From a virus: a stretch of 27,817 bases of DNA. The notes below the pieces were generated by a model. That model had not been told where the DNA came from and searched no databases. It saw nothing but the letters and a program-made list of their open reading frames with translations. Below, one piece after another: positions 1-27,817 of the stretch. A program made the translations under genes and the position numbers. Position 1 is the first letter of the stretch. Each line of letters begins with the position of its first letter. The stretch is taken from IMG/VR virus record IMGVR_UViG_3300048914_000026, positions 1 to 27,817 of that record; one strand, 5' to 3'.

Positions 1-1229
1 ACCCGCCCCCGGAAGTCGAGGTTGTGGGGGAGCCAGAAGCACTTGAAGCGCCGCAGCTCGTCAGCGGTCTCAAGGTCCCGCAGGAGGACCGCTTGGTCCG
101 CTACGATCCCCCGGTTCCTCTCATGGATGCCAGCGAGGGTGATCCGGTGGCCCTTGCGCTGCTCAGGGGTCATCGCCTCCCAAGCCTCAGGGTCGAGCTT
201 GGCAGGGATGGAGAGCAGGGCGTTGGAGGGGAGGCCGAGCTTGTCGTAGTCAAGGCCCCTGTCAAAGCACCACTTCACAAGGTCAAGGATGGGCTGGTTG
301 ATGGCCCACGCGGTCCCTTGGATGGCGTTCACCGACTTCAGCACATAGTCCATGTCGCCTGCCTTGATGGCATCGCGGATGAGCTTCTTGTGGTCTGAGT
401 TGTAGGTACGGACGAGCTTGACGGTGCGGGCCGAACGTTCCTCGTAGTAGCATCCGGTGTCCATTGAAGTCCACGGACGCGGAGGGACGACCATGGGGCG
501 GTGGATGGGCTGCATCCATGCCATGCTCTCGCGGAGCTGACCGAACATGGTGACCCCTTCGTCCGTGAGGCGAACGAGGGTGTCGGAGACGTTGCGGGCG
601 ACAGGAAGCGTGACGACTTCGATCAGCCCCGGAAGGGCCTCAAGGGTAGCGTTCAGGAGAGGCTCTGCGACCTTCAGCTTGTATGCCTGATCCCATGCCT
701 CATGTTCGGGAGCGTTGTCCTTGGCGAGCTTGTTGAAAGCCTTCTTGGCGTTGCGGGCGCTGCCTTGCTTGGCGGCGACCACGCGGAGGCGAGCAGCCAC
801 CTTCTTGCCCTGCTGTTCCTCGATGTCGAGAGCGACGATCTCAGCCTCGATCTGCCCACCGATAGCGGTCTGGACAGAGGCGAGCTTGTTGGCCTGGGTG
901 ATACCGGCGAAGATGCAGTTGAGGGTGATGAAGGACAGGAGGTCAGCGTCAAGGCGGTTGAGGACCTTGAGCGCTGTATGGCTCTTGCCCTTCCCGGCAG
1001 TCGCGTTGTTGGCGTCGAGCCACTCGCGGACCTTGGCGGTGACGAGGGGGATGGACCCCCGGATCATCTTGACGGCTTCGGCTCCCGAGTTGCCGCCCAT
1101 GTTGTCAATCGTGGATTGCTGCTGCTTGATGTAGCGCTCGTAGCCGTCCTTGGCGGCGCGAAGCTCGATGGTGCGCTGGGCTTCGATAAGGTCGGCAGTT
1201 TCGGTCGTCAGGGCAGGCTGTGTGTGCAT
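1..1229 (-). CDS. T7-type single-subunit DNA-directed RNA polymerase, N-terminal part (cut by left edge)
   Basis: Reading leftwards from an ATG at 1229 gives 409 uninterrupted codons that run off the window, so the C-terminal palm and fingers are not visible. The translation follows T7 RNA polymerase in order: an N-terminal region with the 'IPLVTAKVREWLD' and 'DLLSFITLNCIFAGIT' stretches, then 'RPMVVPPRPW' followed by 'GCYY' (T7 has CVVPPKPW and GGGYW), then 'AIQGTAWAINQPILD' (T7 AQNTAWKINKKVL), and at the edge 'FWLPHNLDFRGR' (T7 IWFPYNMDWRGR). A strong ribosome site, AGGAG eight bases before ATG, supports the start. The enzyme would transcribe phage genes from phage-specific promoters, independently of host sigma factors. 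It lies downstream of the integrase but behind a terminator-like hairpin, and a candidate phage promoter precedes it. Catalytic residues lie outside the window, so activity cannot be judged. Confidence 0.93.
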   Translation of the reverse strand, partial: MHTQPALTTETADLIEAQRTIELRAAKDGYERYIKQQQSTIDNMGGNSGAEAVKMIRGSIPLVTAKVREWLDANNATAGKGKSHTALKVLNRLDADLLSFITLNCIFAGITQANKLASVQTAIGGQIEAEIVALDIEEQQGKKVAARLRVVAAKQGSARNAKKAFNKLAKDNAPEHEAWDQAYKLKVAEPLLNATLEALPGLIEVVTLPVARNVSDTLVRLTDEGVTMFGQLRESMAWMQPIHRPMVVPPRPWTSMDTGCYYEERSARTVKLVRTYNSDHKKLIRDAIKAGDMDYVLKSVNAIQGTAWAINQPILDLVKWCFDRGLDYDKLGLPSNALLSIPAKLDPEAWEAMTPEQRKGHRITLAGIHERNRGIVADQAVLLRDLETADELRRFKCFWLPHNLDFRGR

Positions 1230-1244
1230 CGAGGCAACTCCTGA

Positions 1245-1280
1245 ATGTGCTTGAGGGTATGGGTGACTTTTAGACCGGAT
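1245..1280 (-). promoter_or_regulatory. Candidate phage-type promoter upstream of RNA polymerase gene
   Basis: On the minus strand this holds CTAAAAGTCACCCATACCC, starting at 1273. The 10-mer CTAAAAGTCA recurs in the window only upstream of the late operon near 24,154, on the same strand. The position, 35 to 45 bases before the polymerase start codon and after the integrase hairpin, suits a promoter, and TCAC followed by ATA loosely recalls the T7 promoter core. Function is inferred. Confidence 0.4.
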
Positions 1281-1358
1281 CGGAGACGGTCCACGATCTG
1301 GGAGGGTCACTAGGCGAGGGGCTGGAGGGAGGCAAGGGGGAAATCTTCAAGGGATGCG

Positions 1359-11701: not shown

Positions 11702-13285
11702 TTAGATCGCGGTTAGGTAGAAGTCGTCCGTGGAGACGACAGGCGTGAAGACGCCTTCGTGGATATGGTTCGCAATGGCGAGGGCAGTCACACAGTCGTC
11801 GTGACAGCCGCTCTCGGCCTCCATGTTCCCGCTGTCGGTCACAATGTAGGTCATCAGTTCAGCGATGGTGGTGCGGTCGAGTAGCGTCAGCTCCCCTTCG
11901 CGCAGCGAGGCGCGGAGCTGGTCGATTACCAACGGCTTCGTCTTGGTGTTCATGCGGAACCCAAGGTTTACCGTCTCCTTGTCATCGAGCTTGTCGTATA
12001 CCGTCTCCGTGTAGAAGTTAGGGTATGCGAAGTCTTTGCCCAGACGAGTGCAAGTGAGGATGCCGTGGTTGTTGCTCTCGACCGCTATCTTGGCGGTATT
12101 ATAGAAGAACCCTAGGGCCTTCAGGACCGTAGCGAAGTAGTCGGGGTGGACATGGCCTCGCCATATCCCGACTTGTCGTTTCTTGCTGTTGAGGATTTGG
12201 GCGACCGAATAGTCTCCCCCTCGGACGCCCATCGCTACGTCAGCGCCGATGTAGTATGTTTCGGCGGGGTCTACCTTCTCATAGACGGTAAGCTCCCCTC
12301 GCCGGTCATCTTGGAACTCGTCTCCCATCAGCCCCATTGTGGGGGCCGATCTGGGCGCGGACTGCGCCATCTCCGAGAGTTGCTCAGGGTTGAACACGGG
12401 GCGACCCGTGGTCAGGAAGGCTTCTTCAGGTGTCGAAGGGTACTCCTGCTTGAACAGGTCGATACCGTTCTGGGCCACCTTGCGGCGGCGGAACATGAGC
12501 TGCTCGTCATCGAGGTCATGCAGCTCTACGAGCCGTTCTTCCTCGGGAGTGCGCTCGAAGCCTTCGGGGACAGCTTCGCGGTATTCGTCTTGGATGAACC
12601 ACGGGAGGAAGACCGGAATGTAGCCGTTGGTCCCTTCGACCGCTCCCTTCCACATATCGTAGAAGACGCCAGAGACGCCATTGGCCGTGCTTTCGATGAA
12701 GACACAGGTGTTGGGGCGGCTAGGAATGGCCTGGAGGATACCGTTCAGGATATCCTTGGCGGTGTTCTTGGGCCAGAACGCCAGCTCCGACAGGTGGGCG
12801 ACCGTGATGGTTTCGCCTCGGCCTACGCTCTCACCGCCTGCGGTGGCGACCGCATAGCCGCTGTCGAGCTTGTCGAAGTTGAGTTCCTTGCGCGACGAGT
12901 ATTTCGTCTTGGGCTTGAGGGCCTCAGGGGTGTTGTCGTAGTAGCGGCGGGTCATGTCGAACAGCGCTTTCGTGCTGTCCGAGTGGTGGGTCACAACCAT
13001 AGCCTTCTGGGCTTTGCGCTGCGAGGTCCACCAATACATGTAGCCGCCAACGGCGGTGGAGAGGCCCATCTGGCGGGCCTTGAGAATGATTACACGGACC
13101 CGGCCTTCCGTCTTCATCTGATCATTGACCATCTGAAGCAGTCGGCTCTGGGCCTCGTTGAGCTTGAGGTTGACTACCTCACCATCCTTGGTCCTGATCT
13201 TCAGGGCCTTGGAGGCGTAGTAATCGAAGTCCTCGAAAAGCCGCTTCCTGATCTCCTTCCGCCTCTGATCGGCGGTCTGGGTCAT
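11702..13285 (-). CDS. terL: Terminase large subunit (packaging ATPase/nuclease)
   Basis: A 527-residue protein, normal for the family. The ATPase domain has a Walker A-like 'KARQMGLST' at 69-77 and a Walker B/catalytic Glu region 'TVAHLSELAFW' at 161-171. The RNase H-like nuclease domain has the three acidic clusters expected: D349 in 'YIGADVAMG', E403 in 'IAVESNNHG', and 'CHDDCVTALAIA' near 498-509. It pumps DNA into the procapsid through the portal and cuts it. The start overlaps the upstream gene by ATGA and the portal follows immediately. All key residues are present, so it should be active. Confidence 0.95.
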   Translation of the reverse strand: MTQTADQRRKEIRKRLFEDFDYYASKALKIRTKDGEVVNLKLNEAQSRLLQMVNDQMKTEGRVRVIILKARQMGLSTAVGGYMYWWTSQRKAQKAMVVTHHSDSTKALFDMTRRYYDNTPEALKPKTKYSSRKELNFDKLDSGYAVATAGGESVGRGETITVAHLSELAFWPKNTAKDILNGILQAIPSRPNTCVFIESTANGVSGVFYDMWKGAVEGTNGYIPVFLPWFIQDEYREAVPEGFERTPEEERLVELHDLDDEQLMFRRRKVAQNGIDLFKQEYPSTPEEAFLTTGRPVFNPEQLSEMAQSAPRSAPTMGLMGDEFQDDRRGELTVYEKVDPAETYYIGADVAMGVRGGDYSVAQILNSKKRQVGIWRGHVHPDYFATVLKALGFFYNTAKIAVESNNHGILTCTRLGKDFAYPNFYTETVYDKLDDKETVNLGFRMNTKTKPLVIDQLRASLREGELTLLDRTTIAELMTYIVTDSGNMEAESGCHDDCVTALAIANHIHEGVFTPVVSTDDFYLTAI

Positions 13286-14190: not shown

Positions 14191-17100
14191 TTAGTTTTGC
14201 TTGCGCGATCTGCCGGGACCCTTGGTCATGGCACCCGCCTGGAGGCTTTCCTGCGTCTGATGCGGCTTGATCATGGCGAGGTCATAGATACCCTGACGGA
14301 CTTGCTTGATCTCTCCATCCTGTGCGCCAGAGGCGAGCAGTTCAGGCATGATGGCGTCATCGAAGAAGCTGCGAGCCTCATCGCCGGTCTTGATGCGGTC
14401 CCTGACATGCTCGGCCATGCGACCCACGGCAGCCTCAGTGTCGGGACTGAGGCCACGGGTCATGTCCATGATGATGTCCGTGCCTGCGCTGATGTTGCGG
14501 TTCTTCGCAGTATCGTACTCACGCTGGCGGCGGACTTGCTTGTAGTAGGGACCCGCTTCCTTGGGCGGCTCCGAGGCAGGGGCTGCGGGAGCGCCTGTGT
14601 CATCACTGACGCCTCCGGTGAGGCCACCGTTATCGACAGCGCCGGTCTTCGTGTTGACGAAGGACCCATCAGCCTGCGCTACCCATCCGGCCTGAGCGTC
14701 AGCCTGCTTCGCGGCCTCGAAGTCAATCGGGGCTTGGGCAGCAGGCGTGGCAGGGGCGGGCTTGGGAGCGGGCTGGGCGGCATCTAGGCGAGCCTGAGCG
14801 GCCTCATCCACAGGGACGGGAGCTGGGGCAGGAGCGGGAGCTGGAGCGTCAGCAGCCTTGGGCGGGATGCCGAGTTCTTCGACGGCCTTGCCCATACGCC
14901 CACCGAGGACAGAGCCGATCTTGCGGTTCTGCGTCGGGTAGTTGTGACGGATGCGGTTGATCTCGCCTGCGAGGTCAGGGACTTGCTGCTCAACATGGTC
15001 GAGGACAGCCGGAAGGTCCTTGGGATCGATCCCGAGACGGGCAGCGAAGGCGTTCTGGACGCCGCTGTCGCCGGGGATACCCTGAGCGATAGCGTCTTCA
15101 ATCGCAGCCTGAGCCGGGTCCACCTTCTTGGGCTTGGGGGCCGGGGCTTCCTTGGGCGGCTTGGGCGGCGTGAAGTCCACGTTGGGATACGATGCCTTGA
15201 GGGCGTCCTGCTTGGCCTTCTGGCGCTGGGCAGCGATCTTGAGGACATCGTTCCACCCAGCGATCTCAGCGTTGGTCTGAGACTTAGGGACAGGGACCGG
15301 AGTGACGGCGTTGAGGCCAGCATCTGGGCTGTTGGCCTGCTGCTGCCACATGGCGTCTTCTTGCGCCTGCTTGGCGGCTGCGGCTTCCTGATCGGCTGCG
15401 GCGAATGCCTTCTGCTTGGCCTGTGCCCTCTGGAGCGGGGTGGGACCCTTCTCCTGACGGACGGTCCATGCAGCGTTCTGCTCTTGGGCCTTGGCACGGA
15501 GAGCCGCACTGTCGGCTCTGGCCTGGGCGGTATCGCGGGCCTTGAAGATGTCCGCGAGCTGGGCTTCGCCTTCGGCGTCCGATCCTGCTTGTTCCAGAGC
15601 CGCACGGCTTTCCTGTTGACCTGAGGGGCCGACGATCTCGCCTAGCTTCTTGTATCCGTTCTGCTTGTCCAAAAGGCGCTTGGCCGCATGGACACGGGCA
15701 GCTTCAGCATCGCCAGCGGTCGCCTTGGTGGCCCAACGGATGGACCGGCCAACTACACCGGGGATGGGAAGGAGATCGGTGCCTGTGGCAACGACCTGTC
15801 CAGCCCTTGTCAGGAATGAAGGATCGCGGGCGATTTCAGGGGTGAGGCGGCGAGCAACCTGGGTCTTCTCGATGGCGTCCGCGACCGCATCGCCTTCGGT
15901 GGTGCCTCGGAGAGCGTCGATTTCCTCTTGCGGGAGCGAGTGCTTGCGGCTGATGGCGTTCTGGAGCCTGAGCTGTTCGGACTTGGGGATGCCGAGCAGC
16001 TTGACATGCTCCATGAGCTGGTCGGTGTAGCCGTCGATCACATCGTTGACGGTCTTAACGTCGAGCGGGGCGCGAGGCTTGGGACCGACTAGGCCACGGT
16101 TGACGGTGTTGTGGGTCTTTACGAGGTCAGCAACGAACTCGGAAGCATAGCGGGCAGCCTTAGGGTCCATCGCCGCCTGCGTCTTGGCGAAGTTCTCGGC
16201 ACGGATTTCAGGCTTGGCGTTGTGGGCAAGTGTTCCTGCCCCATAGCCGCCTACGCCTCCTGCGAGACCGCCGAGGGTGGAGGCAATCGCCTGCCCGGTG
16301 GGGCCGAGGCCGGCAGCCTGGGCAACCTGACCGCTAACGTCTGCGCCGACAGCGCCTGTTGCGCCGCCCACAGTGTCGCGGATAGGTGTCGAGCCGAACT
16401 CCTTGAGAGCCTCTGATACCGCGCCAGTTCCTGCCTTGGCGAGAAGGCGTGAGATACCAGCAGTACCGAGAGCGGACGATCCGCCCTTGATGATCTCACT
16501 GGAGAGATGGTTTTCGCTGTCAGGGAGGCCGAGGCCGTGACGCACGGTCTTCCCAAAGTCAGCGGTATAGTCCTTGTATCCCCAGGCCCTGCCGATGAGG
16601 GTGTTGACAGGATCGAGGGCGATGCCGGGGATATCGGCAAGCCCTTCAACTACGTCGCCAGTGCCCTGAGCAATTCCACGGCCAAGCTGACCCAAGGAAT
16701 GGACCCCGAGGAAGCCGCTATCATCAGCGGGCTGAACAGGATCGGGATTAGCGGCAGGAGGCTTGCCGGAAGCCACGGGGACAGGTTCCTGTCCGATGGG
16801 GCCGTCCTCAGGCGGGGCTTCATCACCCTCTGCACGAACGGCGGGAGGCGCTGGATGCTCCCCGATCTTGTAGCCCTCAATGAGCTGGCGGATCGAGACC
16901 TGACCGCGATTGTAGTCGCGCCTGATCTGGGCATCGATGGCGTCAGTTCCGGCCTCAGGAGTGGCGAAGACTTGGAAGCCGTTGCCACCGGGGTTCTTGA
17001 GGTTGCCGACATTGTTGGTCGAGGACCCTTCGGTCTTGACGTAGGCGTCTCGGAACGCCTGAAGCTGATCGGGGGTGAGGGGCTTATCGATGTCAACGCC

Positions 17101-17358
17101 AAGGGCCTTGGCGATGGTCGCCATCTTGGCGTCTACGATGTGGTCTGGGTTGTCGCCGCCGTGGGAGGCGCGGGGGGTTAAGCCTCCCGTGTGCGACTGT
17201 GAGGCCGGTGCGGACGAAGGCGTCCCCTTGCTTGCTTGGAGCTGCTTGAGGGTGACGCCTTCTTCCTGAATGTATGCGTCAATATCCGCTTCGGGGGCAC
17301 CCATATCGATCATCTTGGCGATGTTGCGCTTGATGCGCCCGATGTCGGGATTAGACAT
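14191..17358 (-). CDS. Large internal virion/ejection protein with muralytic-like N-terminal domain
   Basis: A 1055-residue protein. After an N-terminal 'MIDMGAPEADIDAYIQEEGVT' segment common in podovirus ejection proteins, residues about 85-165 read like a lysozyme or transglycosylase-type domain: 'FRDAYVKTEGSSTNNVGNLKNPGG' with a candidate catalytic Glu at 110, then 'FQVFATPEAGTDAI' and 'RGQVSIRQLIEGY'. This would open peptidoglycan as DNA enters the cell. A Gly/Ala-rich, mildly hydrophobic stretch ('GGLAGGVGGYGAG', about 360-380) follows, and then long helical, Ala/Lys/Gln and Pro-rich regions. It is coupled by TAATG to the preceding ejection gene. It could be the window's only muralytic protein. 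Confidence 0.75.
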   Translation of the reverse strand: MSNPDIGRIKRNIAKMIDMGAPEADIDAYIQEEGVTLKQLQASKGTPSSAPASQSHTGGLTPRASHGGDNPDHIVDAKMATIAKALGVDIDKPLTPDQLQAFRDAYVKTEGSSTNNVGNLKNPGGNGFQVFATPEAGTDAIDAQIRRDYNRGQVSIRQLIEGYKIGEHPAPPAVRAEGDEAPPEDGPIGQEPVPVASGKPPAANPDPVQPADDSGFLGVHSLGQLGRGIAQGTGDVVEGLADIPGIALDPVNTLIGRAWGYKDYTADFGKTVRHGLGLPDSENHLSSEIIKGGSSALGTAGISRLLAKAGTGAVSEALKEFGSTPIRDTVGGATGAVGADVSGQVAQAAGLGPTGQAIASTLGGLAGGVGGYGAGTLAHNAKPEIRAENFAKTQAAMDPKAARYASEFVADLVKTHNTVNRGLVGPKPRAPLDVKTVNDVIDGYTDQLMEHVKLLGIPKSEQLRLQNAISRKHSLPQEEIDALRGTTEGDAVADAIEKTQVARRLTPEIARDPSFLTRAGQVVATGTDLLPIPGVVGRSIRWATKATAGDAEAARVHAAKRLLDKQNGYKKLGEIVGPSGQQESRAALEQAGSDAEGEAQLADIFKARDTAQARADSAALRAKAQEQNAAWTVRQEKGPTPLQRAQAKQKAFAAADQEAAAAKQAQEDAMWQQQANSPDAGLNAVTPVPVPKSQTNAEIAGWNDVLKIAAQRQKAKQDALKASYPNVDFTPPKPPKEAPAPKPKKVDPAQAAIEDAIAQGIPGDSGVQNAFAARLGIDPKDLPAVLDHVEQQVPDLAGEINRIRHNYPTQNRKIGSVLGGRMGKAVEELGIPPKAADAPAPAPAPAPVPVDEAAQARLDAAQPAPKPAPATPAAQAPIDFEAAKQADAQAGWVAQADGSFVNTKTGAVDNGGLTGGVSDDTGAPAAPASEPPKEAGPYYKQVRRQREYDTAKNRNISAGTDIIMDMTRGLSPDTEAAVGRMAEHVRDRIKTGDEARSFFDDAIMPELLASGAQDGEIKQVRQGIYDLAMIKPHQTQESLQAGAMTKGPGRSRKQN

Positions 17359-24816: not shown

Positions 24817-24891
24817 TTGCGCCCATATGCTCGGGGGCAGGGTGATCCCCTGCGGCGCGGCGGCGCTATCCGCCATCGGTACGGAGACCCC

Positions 24892-25014
24892 ATGTCCTAC
24901 GTTCTCGCCTCCCTTGTCGATGCGGTGGCGCAAGCCTCCTTCCCTCTCCTGCTGGGCGCTGGTGCGCTCTGCATCGCTCGTAGCTGGGGGCGCTTCCTGC
25001 GCTCCATGAACTGA
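24892..25014 (+). CDS. Tiny membrane protein (40 aa)
   Basis: Reads 'MSYVLASLVDAVAQASFPLL', then a hydrophobic 'LGAGALCIARSWGRF' end with two Arg near the C-terminus, so a single membrane helix is plausible. GGAG lies five bases before the ATG, a good ribosome site. It is the first rightward gene after the control region. The first 13 bases around its start (ACCCCATGTCCTA) are identical to the start of the 705-residue gene, so both proteins begin MSYVL. Function is unknown. Confidence 0.5.
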   Translation: MSYVLASLVDAVAQASFPLLLGAGALCIARSWGRFLRSMN

Positions 25015-25193: not shown

Positions 25194-25217
25194 CCGCACA
25201 AGCGAAAGGTTAACCCC

Positions 25218-27335
25218 ATGTCCTATGTCCTGTTCGTATTCGATCACTCCAACGGTGAGCGCGATTGCCTCTATAGCCTCGTAAACCACGGCGCGACTGA
25301 TAGCCTCTTAGGCGATTACGCATCGCGTGATCTCGATTACGTTAAGTCGCTGGCTGATAGCGCTGCGGCTGAGTTCTCCGCGCCTAGTGTGGTGGGGTCG
25401 GGGGTATCTGCGCAGTATGCGATCTTTAGGACTAGCACTGTCCCCATGGGTCGCCACGGATTGGACCTGAGCCGCTTTCGCTCTCCGGTCTATGTGCCTG
25501 CACCTTGCGTTGCGGCGGCTCTCCATCGCGGCTGGCGTGTGCCTGAGGCATGCATGGGGGATTTCATCGCACCTCGCGTGGCGTCGGCTCTCGCCTCTGT
25601 GTCTGCGCCTGCGGTCTATCCCATCAATCCCGACTTGCCTGTGGAACTGAGCGACGGAACGCCTTGTCGTGTGATCCGGGTAAACCGTGAGTGGGGGGAT
25701 ATCCGCATTCGTCCCCTGCGGCGTCCTCGCGGTTCCTACGCGAGGGACTGGAATGATGAGTGGAACCATAGCCTTGTTACGGGCGAGTTCGGCGGCTCCC
25801 CTCACTATCTGCGCCTGCAAAACGTGATCGCGCGGCCTGCTCCTGTCGATGTGGAGGAAAGCGGGAGCGATAGCAGCGAAGCGCCTGCCCCTGCGCCTGT
25901 GGTTCGCTTTGAAGTCCGTTCGGGTCTCAATGGGACTGATCGCGATACCTGGGGCTGCGTCCATGAAGCGGAAAGCGGCAAGGCTGCGGCTGCTTGGGTC
26001 TCTGAGCGCAAGGGAGACTATCAGGCTGCCGGTAAGTCCCTTGTCATCGTCAAGGTTGAACTAGCAGCGCCTTCGGTTGACTGGCGGGAGCGGGAAGCCT
26101 CGCGCCTCTCGGACGGGACCTATACGCCTTTGCCGGGCGATTGGGCGCGGCTGATCGCAAGGGACTATCCCGACCATTTCCCCCATGTTGCCAAGAGCGA
26201 TAAGCGCAAGGTCGCCTTTACGGAGACTGAAGGCAGCGGGGAGCGCGATAAGCAAAAGGTGCTTTCGGCTCGGGCATACATGGATCGCTTTTTCTGTGGG
26301 GGCGGCAAAGCGTCGTGGTACGGTTACGAAAGGGAGCGCTTCATTTCCGATATGCTGGGCGCTTCCATTAAGCCCCTGCTTGCGCCTCTGGCCGATGCCG
26401 ATGCCCTAGAGCGTGTCTATCTGGACTGTCAGAGGGGCTATGATGTCAATTCGTGCATGTCGCATAGCCTCGGTGATTATCGCTCCCCCATCCATCCTGT
26501 CCGCGTTTACGCGATGGGCGGCGATATCACTATGGCGCTTCTGCGCGGCTATGGGGACAGTGCGCCCGATGACTTCGCGGCGGCGGACGTTGATCCCGAT
26601 GCCACTTGGGATAGCGCAGGGCCGATTGTGGCGCGGTGTCTCGTCTGGCCGGAAGGGAAGCAATATGGGCGAGTGTATGGCGACTGCGACGCCGCGCGTA
26701 TGCTTCGGACTGCGCTAGAGGCTGACGGCTATCGTTCGGGTGATCTCTACGGCGCAAAGATTGCTAAGGTCCGTGGCGAGGGGCGTTATTCTCACATGTG
26801 GGTCATGCCTTACTTGGACATTGGCGACGGTAACTTCTCGGACGGCGGCGACTATTGGACAGTCGGTGGGGATTATTGCGGCGGCTCCACGTCTGGCATG
26901 ATTGAAGCCGAGGAAATGGAGACCTGCGCCCATTGTGACGAACAGTGCAGCGCGGACGATTTGTCCTCTGTGCTGGTGGGCGAGGGCGATTATGAGCAAT
27001 GGTGTTCTAGCTGCTGCTATGACACGGGACATTGTGAACATCTGGGCGAGACTGTCGCACATGATGAACTGCGCGAATTTGTCGATAACCGGGGCTGGAC
27101 TGTCCATGTTGCTGGGTGGCTGCTGGACAACGGCACGATTGAGGCTGTGCAGGATACTAACGGCGAGTGGCGGCATCCATCGCAAGCATTCACCTGTCCC
27201 GATTGTTCCGAAGTGTTCCCCATCGATGAAGGCGAGGAAATGGAACTGCCCACCGGCGATACGGTGACGTTGTGTTCCGATTGCCACTCTGAGCGGGAAG
27301 CCTCGCCCGAATTGCCTCTGGCGTCTGCGGCCTAA
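25218..27335 (+). CDS. Large phage protein of unknown function with C-terminal Cys clusters
   Basis: A 705-residue protein starting 'MSYVLFVFDHSNGERDCLYS'. I do not recognise residues 1-370. A middle block has 'CMSHSLGDYRSPIHPVRVYAMGGDITMALLRG', 'IVARCLVWPEGKQYGRVYGD' and 'MWVMPYLDIGDGNFSDGGDYWTVGG', which looks like one folded domain. From about residue 570 come two zinc-ribbon-like clusters: C-x2-C-x3-C with a later W-C-x2-CC and C-x-H, then 'CPDC' (about 660) and 'CSDC' 20-odd residues on. Proteins of this build occur in several phages without assigned function; DNA, RNA or protein binding are all possible. AAAGG upstream supports the start. It leads the rightward cluster with the peptidase gene. 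Confidence 0.85.
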   Translation: MSYVLFVFDHSNGERDCLYSLVNHGATDSLLGDYASRDLDYVKSLADSAAAEFSAPSVVGSGVSAQYAIFRTSTVPMGRHGLDLSRFRSPVYVPAPCVAAALHRGWRVPEACMGDFIAPRVASALASVSAPAVYPINPDLPVELSDGTPCRVIRVNREWGDIRIRPLRRPRGSYARDWNDEWNHSLVTGEFGGSPHYLRLQNVIARPAPVDVEESGSDSSEAPAPAPVVRFEVRSGLNGTDRDTWGCVHEAESGKAAAAWVSERKGDYQAAGKSLVIVKVELAAPSVDWREREASRLSDGTYTPLPGDWARLIARDYPDHFPHVAKSDKRKVAFTETEGSGERDKQKVLSARAYMDRFFCGGGKASWYGYERERFISDMLGASIKPLLAPLADADALERVYLDCQRGYDVNSCMSHSLGDYRSPIHPVRVYAMGGDITMALLRGYGDSAPDDFAAADVDPDATWDSAGPIVARCLVWPEGKQYGRVYGDCDAARMLRTALEADGYRSGDLYGAKIAKVRGEGRYSHMWVMPYLDIGDGNFSDGGDYWTVGGDYCGGSTSGMIEAEEMETCAHCDEQCSADDLSSVLVGEGDYEQWCSSCCYDTGHCEHLGETVAHDELREFVDNRGWTVHVAGWLLDNGTIEAVQDTNGEWRHPSQAFTCPDCSEVFPIDEGEEMELPTGDTVTLCSDCHSEREASPELPLASAA

Positions 27336-27361
27336 CTGTCCTCAATTTAGGATTATCTACC

Positions 27362-27817
27362 ATGTCTAAGGTATTCACTATGGGCCGTCCGGTTGCGGCG
27401 CTGCCCTATTCTCCTTCCCCTGCTGAACTGACGGAAATGCAAGCGGGCGTTTCGGGTCTGCTAGAGGTCCTGAGCTGGGCGCGGCCTCACGGGTCGCAAG
27501 CTGAACTGGACTTCGTTAAGCGCCATGTGCTTGCGCCGCTAAAGGCGCTGGGGGTTCCCTATCAGGTCGATAACTTCGGGAATGTATGGGCCACGGTTTC
27601 CCCTTACTCGGGCTATGATGGGCCTGCCTTCCTGTGGTCCTGTCATGTAGATACGGTTCACTCTAAGGGCGGTCGGCAGTCCGTTCGCTTTAGGGCCGAT
27701 GGGCGCACGGTTGAACTGGTGAAAGGGAAGCCGGGGCGCTGCCTGGGGGCAGATGATGGCGCGGGCCTGTGGCTGCTCTTGGAAATGATCAAGGGCGGCG
27801 TTCCGGGGGGCTACGTG
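27362..27817 (+). CDS. M20/PepT-like zinc peptidase, N-terminal part (cut by right edge)
   Basis: An ATG at 27,362, with AGGA nine bases upstream, opens 152 codons that run off the window. The sequence shows 'FLWSCHVDTVHSKGG', the His-x-Asp metal and catalytic motif of M20-type co-catalytic zinc peptidases, and 'CLGADDGAGLWLLLEMI', matching the bridging-Asp region (GADD.AG) of PepT-like enzymes. The N-terminal part ('ELDFVKRHVLAPLKALGVPYQVDNFGN') fits the same family. Such enzymes remove amino acids from short peptides or hydrolyse related amides in the cytosol. The remaining metal ligands are outside the window. A gene of this kind in a podovirus is unusual. Confidence 0.75.
   Translation, partial: MSKVFTMGRPVAALPYSPSPAELTEMQAGVSGLLEVLSWARPHGSQAELDFVKRHVLAPLKALGVPYQVDNFGNVWATVSPYSGYDGPAFLWSCHVDTVHSKGGRQSVRFRADGRTVELVKGKPGRCLGADDGAGLWLLLEMIKGGVPGGYV

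Follow-up and report, generated by a model that had tools for sequence, protein, structure and literature searches.

The window analyzed here, a stretch of viral DNA of 27,817 bases that is a whole IMG/VR record, ends inside a gene for a clan MH metallopeptidase. In relatives of this gene, a second gene, encoding a protein with putative zinc fingers, lies directly upstream with few exceptions. The new point is this near-obligate two-gene unit; the peptidase family itself is already known. We propose that the fragment encodes the N-terminal part of a clan MH exopeptidase or amidohydrolase that is cytosolic, has a single domain, and binds two metals, and that partner and peptidase form a joint module for early host takeover or counter-defense, a reading to which we give a probability of about 0.5.

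The window ends in the 5′ part of a clan MH metallopeptidase gene

The peptidase reading frame occupies positions 27362 to 27817 on the plus strand. It comprises 152 codons and is open to the end of the contig, with its 3′ end absent, and because the window is the whole record, the remainder of the gene cannot be read there. We assigned it as the 5′ part of a clan MH metallopeptidase gene of PHROG 4191 from the reading frame, a match to that profile (annotated "peptidase"; E = 7.6e-17), and its 70% identity to a relative, L002. Nine relatives of the fragment were found in viral contigs. L002 is the best of these, with the identity extending over residues 19 to 152 (tblastn; E = 7e-63 relative to the candidate stretches), and its own match to PHROG 4191 has an E value of 3.5e-62. 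These matches show that the metallopeptidase gene read in the earlier note is real and not a chance reading frame. No Pfam peptidase model, M20 and M28 included, matched the fragment in a Pfam search, and an exact-pattern search of the viral contigs found no complete copy of the window gene.

The two motifs described in the earlier note are present. HVD (27644 to 27652) supplies H95, a metal ligand, and D97, and GADDGAG (27746 to 27766, from residue 129) supplies D131, the expected bridging ligand. Three of the seven expected active-site residues are therefore visible in the window copy, and we take them to be metal-site residues from general knowledge of M20/M28 enzymes. All 105 complete relatives have the aligned H, D, and D. 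The ribosome site was also found as described: AGGA at 27349 to 27352 lies 9 bases 5′ of the peptidase ATG.

Complete relatives gave a view of the rest of the enzyme. The L002 peptidase is complete at 434 amino acids, with its active-site positions at H133, D135, D169, E195, E196, D223, and H295. The same series H, D, D, E, E, D, H is kept without exception by the 105 complete relatives with an upstream partner, and presumably, from what is generally known of M20/M28 enzymes, it forms a two-metal clan MH active site. The ligands past the window's part of the gene (EE, D, and the final H) are thus kept throughout these relatives. The earlier note named two refuting cases, that the rest of the gene is truncated and that the contig passes into host chromosome just beyond the window. 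Downstream of the L002 gene come phage genes for nucleotide metabolism and replication (reductase, dNMP kinase, exonuclease, DNA polymerase, and primase/helicase), and this arrangement, with the gene itself complete, argues by analogy against both. Contig 3300026095_000601 encodes a capsid protein with 79% identity to the window's own; the pair is present there too (L015), and its peptidase gene is whole, with 386 residues.

The predicted fold is PepT-like, but the M20 lid domain is missing

We used an AlphaFold model of L002, built with 78 sequences, in which the core (about residues 60 to 325) is mostly at pLDDT >90. The closest solved folds are the PepT-type tripeptidases 3rza (Z = 26.6) and 3gb0 (Z = 26.4), both at 2.3 Å over 242 aligned residues; the next structural matches are other M20 and M42 enzymes. 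The earlier note's description of the gene as M20/PepT-like therefore holds for the nearest folds. It does not hold for family membership, where the lid is absent and Pfam favors M28. The lid was judged in relatives. In L002, 72 residues separate the fifth ligand (D223) from the last (H295), and the model contains no inserted domain; therefore, the M20 lid is missing. The family profile has 65 columns over the same interval. Pfam M28 matched 63 of 78 family members at E ≤ 0.01, against 5 of 78 each for M20 and M42. The M20 model PF01546 matched none of the fragment, L002, L011, or L012, and the NCBIfam PepT-like model TIGR01883 scored 19.3 bits against a cutoff of 274. For the M28 model PF04389 (gathering cutoff, 21.3), the scores were 26.6 for L002, 28.9 for L012 (phage BDU-MI-1), and 20.3 for L011 (phage Pasto). 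From the missing lid and the Pfam counts, we call the predicted enzyme a lidless clan MH two-metal exopeptidase that is PepT-like by its modeled fold and not a full member of M20.

The partner gene has a conserved core and a Cys-rich C-terminal region

The partner gene lies at 25218 to 27335 on the plus strand, encodes 705 amino acids, and leaves 26 bases between its end and the peptidase gene. We found no Pfam family for this reading frame. It is related to PHROG 6980 by a weak but consistent match (E = 4.1e-5, residues 470 to 617), and this profile matched 35 of 78 partners at E ≤ 0.01. Alignment defined a core at residues 385 to 545 (26370 to 26852) with the pattern SCM...Y...R...YGD...PYxD, in which the Cys of SCM (C413) and the Asp of PYxD (D534) are invariant in 105 of 105 sequences. 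From C570 onward, a Cys-rich C-terminal region (26925 to 27284) has the look of LIM/FYVE-like zinc fingers of the treble-clef type, an assignment that comes from the sequence and from weak matches: a partner profile from ten relatives matched LIM chains with a best E value of 0.0052, and the structural matches of the region were likewise weak.

The AlphaFold model of the partner is confident from about residue 223. No significant relative was found among solved structures, where the best Foldseek E value was 0.54 and the best Z score 5.0, and in a viral structure library the best matches were uncharacterized phage proteins. The top structural rows were of GNAT type (RibT among others, ATE1 and FemX ranking further down), at Z scores of 5.0 or less, which is below a meaningful level. 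With these scores and nothing below an E value of 0.5 in Foldseek, we do not accept a GNAT or aminoacyl-transferase fold as an established identity. We also set aside kinship of the core with PcfJ. The order of motifs looked similar, but the hhalign probability was 0.2%; as the PcfJ profile was very thin (three sequences from four loci, L216 to L219), this comparison was underpowered and is not a disproof.

A 19-base direct repeat (24887 to 24905 and 25213 to 25231; 89% identical) was seen at the partner start. Its second copy spans the start of the partner, and its first copy spans the start of a 40-codon reading frame (24892 to 25014) that, like the partner, begins with MSYVL. This is possibly a duplicated start region or a leader reading frame; short two-copy repeats can also arise by chance.

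The peptidase and the partner form a near-obligate pair

The partner is directly upstream of 121 of 129 peptidase genes, counted without L001 and L013, which are copies of loci already counted. It is downstream in one (L116) and on neither side in seven. In L030, L079, and L122, the peptidase is no more than 330 bases from where the stretch begins. The real exceptions, with room upstream and no partner, are L117, L118, L120, and L123, all of them MAG assemblies. In one of these, from a Chromatiaceae MAG, the peptidase begins 7 bases after an apparent recD-type helicase gene (L120, 5933 to 7998). In the reverse count, over 79 loci that were found with partner patterns and that share contigs with the peptidase set, a peptidase adjoins the partner in 73. 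The stretch stops close to the partner in L138, L146, and L203, which leaves L137, L142, and L148 as the real exceptions. Hidden Markov models built from three different seeds each gathered 121 of 125 upstream reading frames as one family.

The partner cluster was found within 6 kb of the peptidase in 108 of 127 loci, and the next most frequent neighbor family in the same clustering was found in 30 of 127. Thus, the pair holds together while its surroundings change. From partner stop to peptidase start (taking the longest reading frame), the median distance is −1 base, and it is at most 60 bases in 74% of the 121 pairs; in L002 the 26-base distance is the same as in the window. No single-reading-frame fusion of the two was found. 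The pair occurs across diverse phages and prophages, and phage LR756502 has a partner-like protein downstream of the peptidase (E = 7.4e-6). For the distant peptidases of Thermus phage P23-45_stolb1 and Bacillus phage vB_BcoS-136, no partner was present in the stretch fetched. L067 and L103, the latter from Mesorhizobium sp. STM 4661, carry the peptidase twice, with about 4.5 kb between the copies and a partner gene for each.

We also compared the divergence of the two proteins in a mirror-tree analysis. The correlation was high (r = 0.85), and none of 2,000 permutations reached it. However, three control neighbor families, on 6 to 8 nonredundant loci each, gave r values of 0.82 to 0.92. The correlated divergence is therefore not specific to the pair, and we do not use it as evidence for the pairing. 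The earlier note had placed the peptidase gene in a phage operon. That setting stands, but its precise form, a two-gene unit with the upstream partner, was not described there. That the peptidase is nearly always found behind the zinc-finger partner suggests that both work together.

The family is widespread in phages and lies in the early region

With two relatives as tblastn queries, the peptidase was found in 382 and 372 of 50,697 phage records. Therefore, the peptidase is less unusual in phages than the earlier note thought when it called this not a usual phage gene, and it is conserved in KP34-like and PhiM1-like phages. The host genera of the matching records are mostly Klebsiella (230), Pectobacterium (51), and Vibrio (42), and eight places in a 636-kb phage record, LR756504.1, match the peptidase query. 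The family is already annotated in hundreds of phages, and the window gene adds one member. A scan of IMG/VR with alignment A1 found 275 relatives among 311 candidate stretches, the best 80 of the 275 corresponding to 79 loci. The set of 129 peptidase genes used for the pairing count is redundant, with 120 complete peptidases falling into 77 groups at 80% identity.

We considered a bacterial housekeeping gene as the source. Genome contigs held 37 peptidase loci, and the partner was present in most of them and missing from four MAG loci, which argues against this source. The PHROG 4191 profile matched 9 of 14 control genomes and thus also catches cellular MH peptidases.

In phages KP34, PP90, Ep4, and KF1, the pair precedes the primase and helicase, and in phage Pasto a gene annotated as ArdA-like antirestriction is immediately upstream of the pair. 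KP34 gp10 and gp11 are both in the core-gene table of KP34-like phages in PMC4411677, and PMC6115819 places the peptidase of PhiM1-like phages in the early region and assigns it IPR007484. The two-gene unit is not discussed in the available passages of either paper or in the open PMC literature searched, and the same literature held no work on the function of the peptidase or the partner. Around the pair, promoter and terminator sites were no more numerous than in shuffled sequence.

Elsewhere in the window (3 to 1310, 1403 to 2530, and 11702 to 13285), we observed a T7-like RNA polymerase fragment beside a tyrosine integrase, plus a terminase. The terminase is nearest to that of Roseobacter phage CRP-7 (40%). 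Judged from these genes, the phage is probably temperate and does not resemble a standard T7 relative. On the minus strand, a reading frame of 1,055 amino acids (14191 to 17358) had no PHROG match at an E value of 0.001.

A joint early module is the favored role of the pair

In the joint-module reading, the peptidase and the zinc-finger partner would be made together early in infection and would act on one substrate. The partner may capture or modify a protein or peptide of the host, which the peptidase would then trim or hydrolyze. The purpose would be host takeover or counter-defense and not bulk amino acid recycling. Recycling is a rival reading: a broad PepT-like di- or tripeptidase could free amino acids from host peptides for phage protein synthesis, with the partner an unrelated early traveler. 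PepT tripeptidases are the nearest solved folds, and the L002 phage carries nucleotide-metabolism genes (the reductase and dNMP kinase). However, scavenging leaves unexplained both the adjacency of the partner in 121 of 129 cases and the early-region position, and many bacteria own PepT-like peptidases, so we consider it rather unlikely. A more specific counter-defense role, in which one host peptide or amide (a toxin, a signal, or an N-terminal tag) is inactivated and the partner is a sensor or carrier, is a narrower form of the joint-module reading and overlaps with it. The early-region position and the ArdA-like neighbor in Pasto favor this version, but that neighbor is a single annotated case, and PADLOC gave no match for the peptidase and a weak homing-endonuclease row for the partner; we consider it, too, rather unlikely. 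Unlikely, given the structural scores above, is the idea that the partner represents an acyl- or aminoacyl-transferase of a new kind, its core GNAT-like and its Cys catalytic, that tags host proteins or peptides, and that the lidless peptidase erases or processes the tag. If this were true, the pair would be a write/erase system through which the phage controls a protein modification early in infection.

Phages do cut murein, and an amide hydrolase fold would suit action on murein peptides for lysis or entry. A cell-wall role of this kind is nevertheless very unlikely, as no signal peptide or transmembrane stretch was apparent on reading the sequence, several named phages have the pair ahead of the primase and helicase, and the enzyme has a single exopeptidase domain. 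The peptidase sits at a contig end, which would fit a chance reading frame or a cellular gene joined on by chimeric assembly. This explanation is barely credible for the window, because L002 is 70% identical with the same upstream gene at an equal distance and the contig with the 79%-identical capsid protein also bears the pair; for the family, it is refuted.

The peptidase gene is conserved in the early region of phages that infect Klebsiella, Pectobacterium, and Vibrio, and "putative peptidase" is the only role that annotations give it. Its near-obligate pairing with a single partner family across diverse phages and prophages makes two orphan genes one testable unit, accessible in KP34-like laboratory phages.

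Comparison with known systems

The phage peptidases can be set beside two cellular families. PepT (M20; 3rza and 3gb0) shares its catalytic fold with the L002 model at 19% identity over the aligned part, but M20 enzymes have a lid (dimerization) domain between the fifth and last ligands that is absent in the phage relatives. M28 (PF04389) shares their single-domain layout, although their Pfam scores are weak. The window partner differs from PHROG 6980 by a long, low-confidence N-terminal part (residues 1 to 222). The closest known systems are the named members of PHROG 4191: KP34 gp11, PP90 orf9, the Pasto "zinc peptidase," and the peptidase of BDU-MI-1. The fragment is 38 to 40% identical to the two named phage records matched directly, and the window copy is partial. 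The upstream partner family is common to these phages and the window, and the active-site residues are alike in the relatives.
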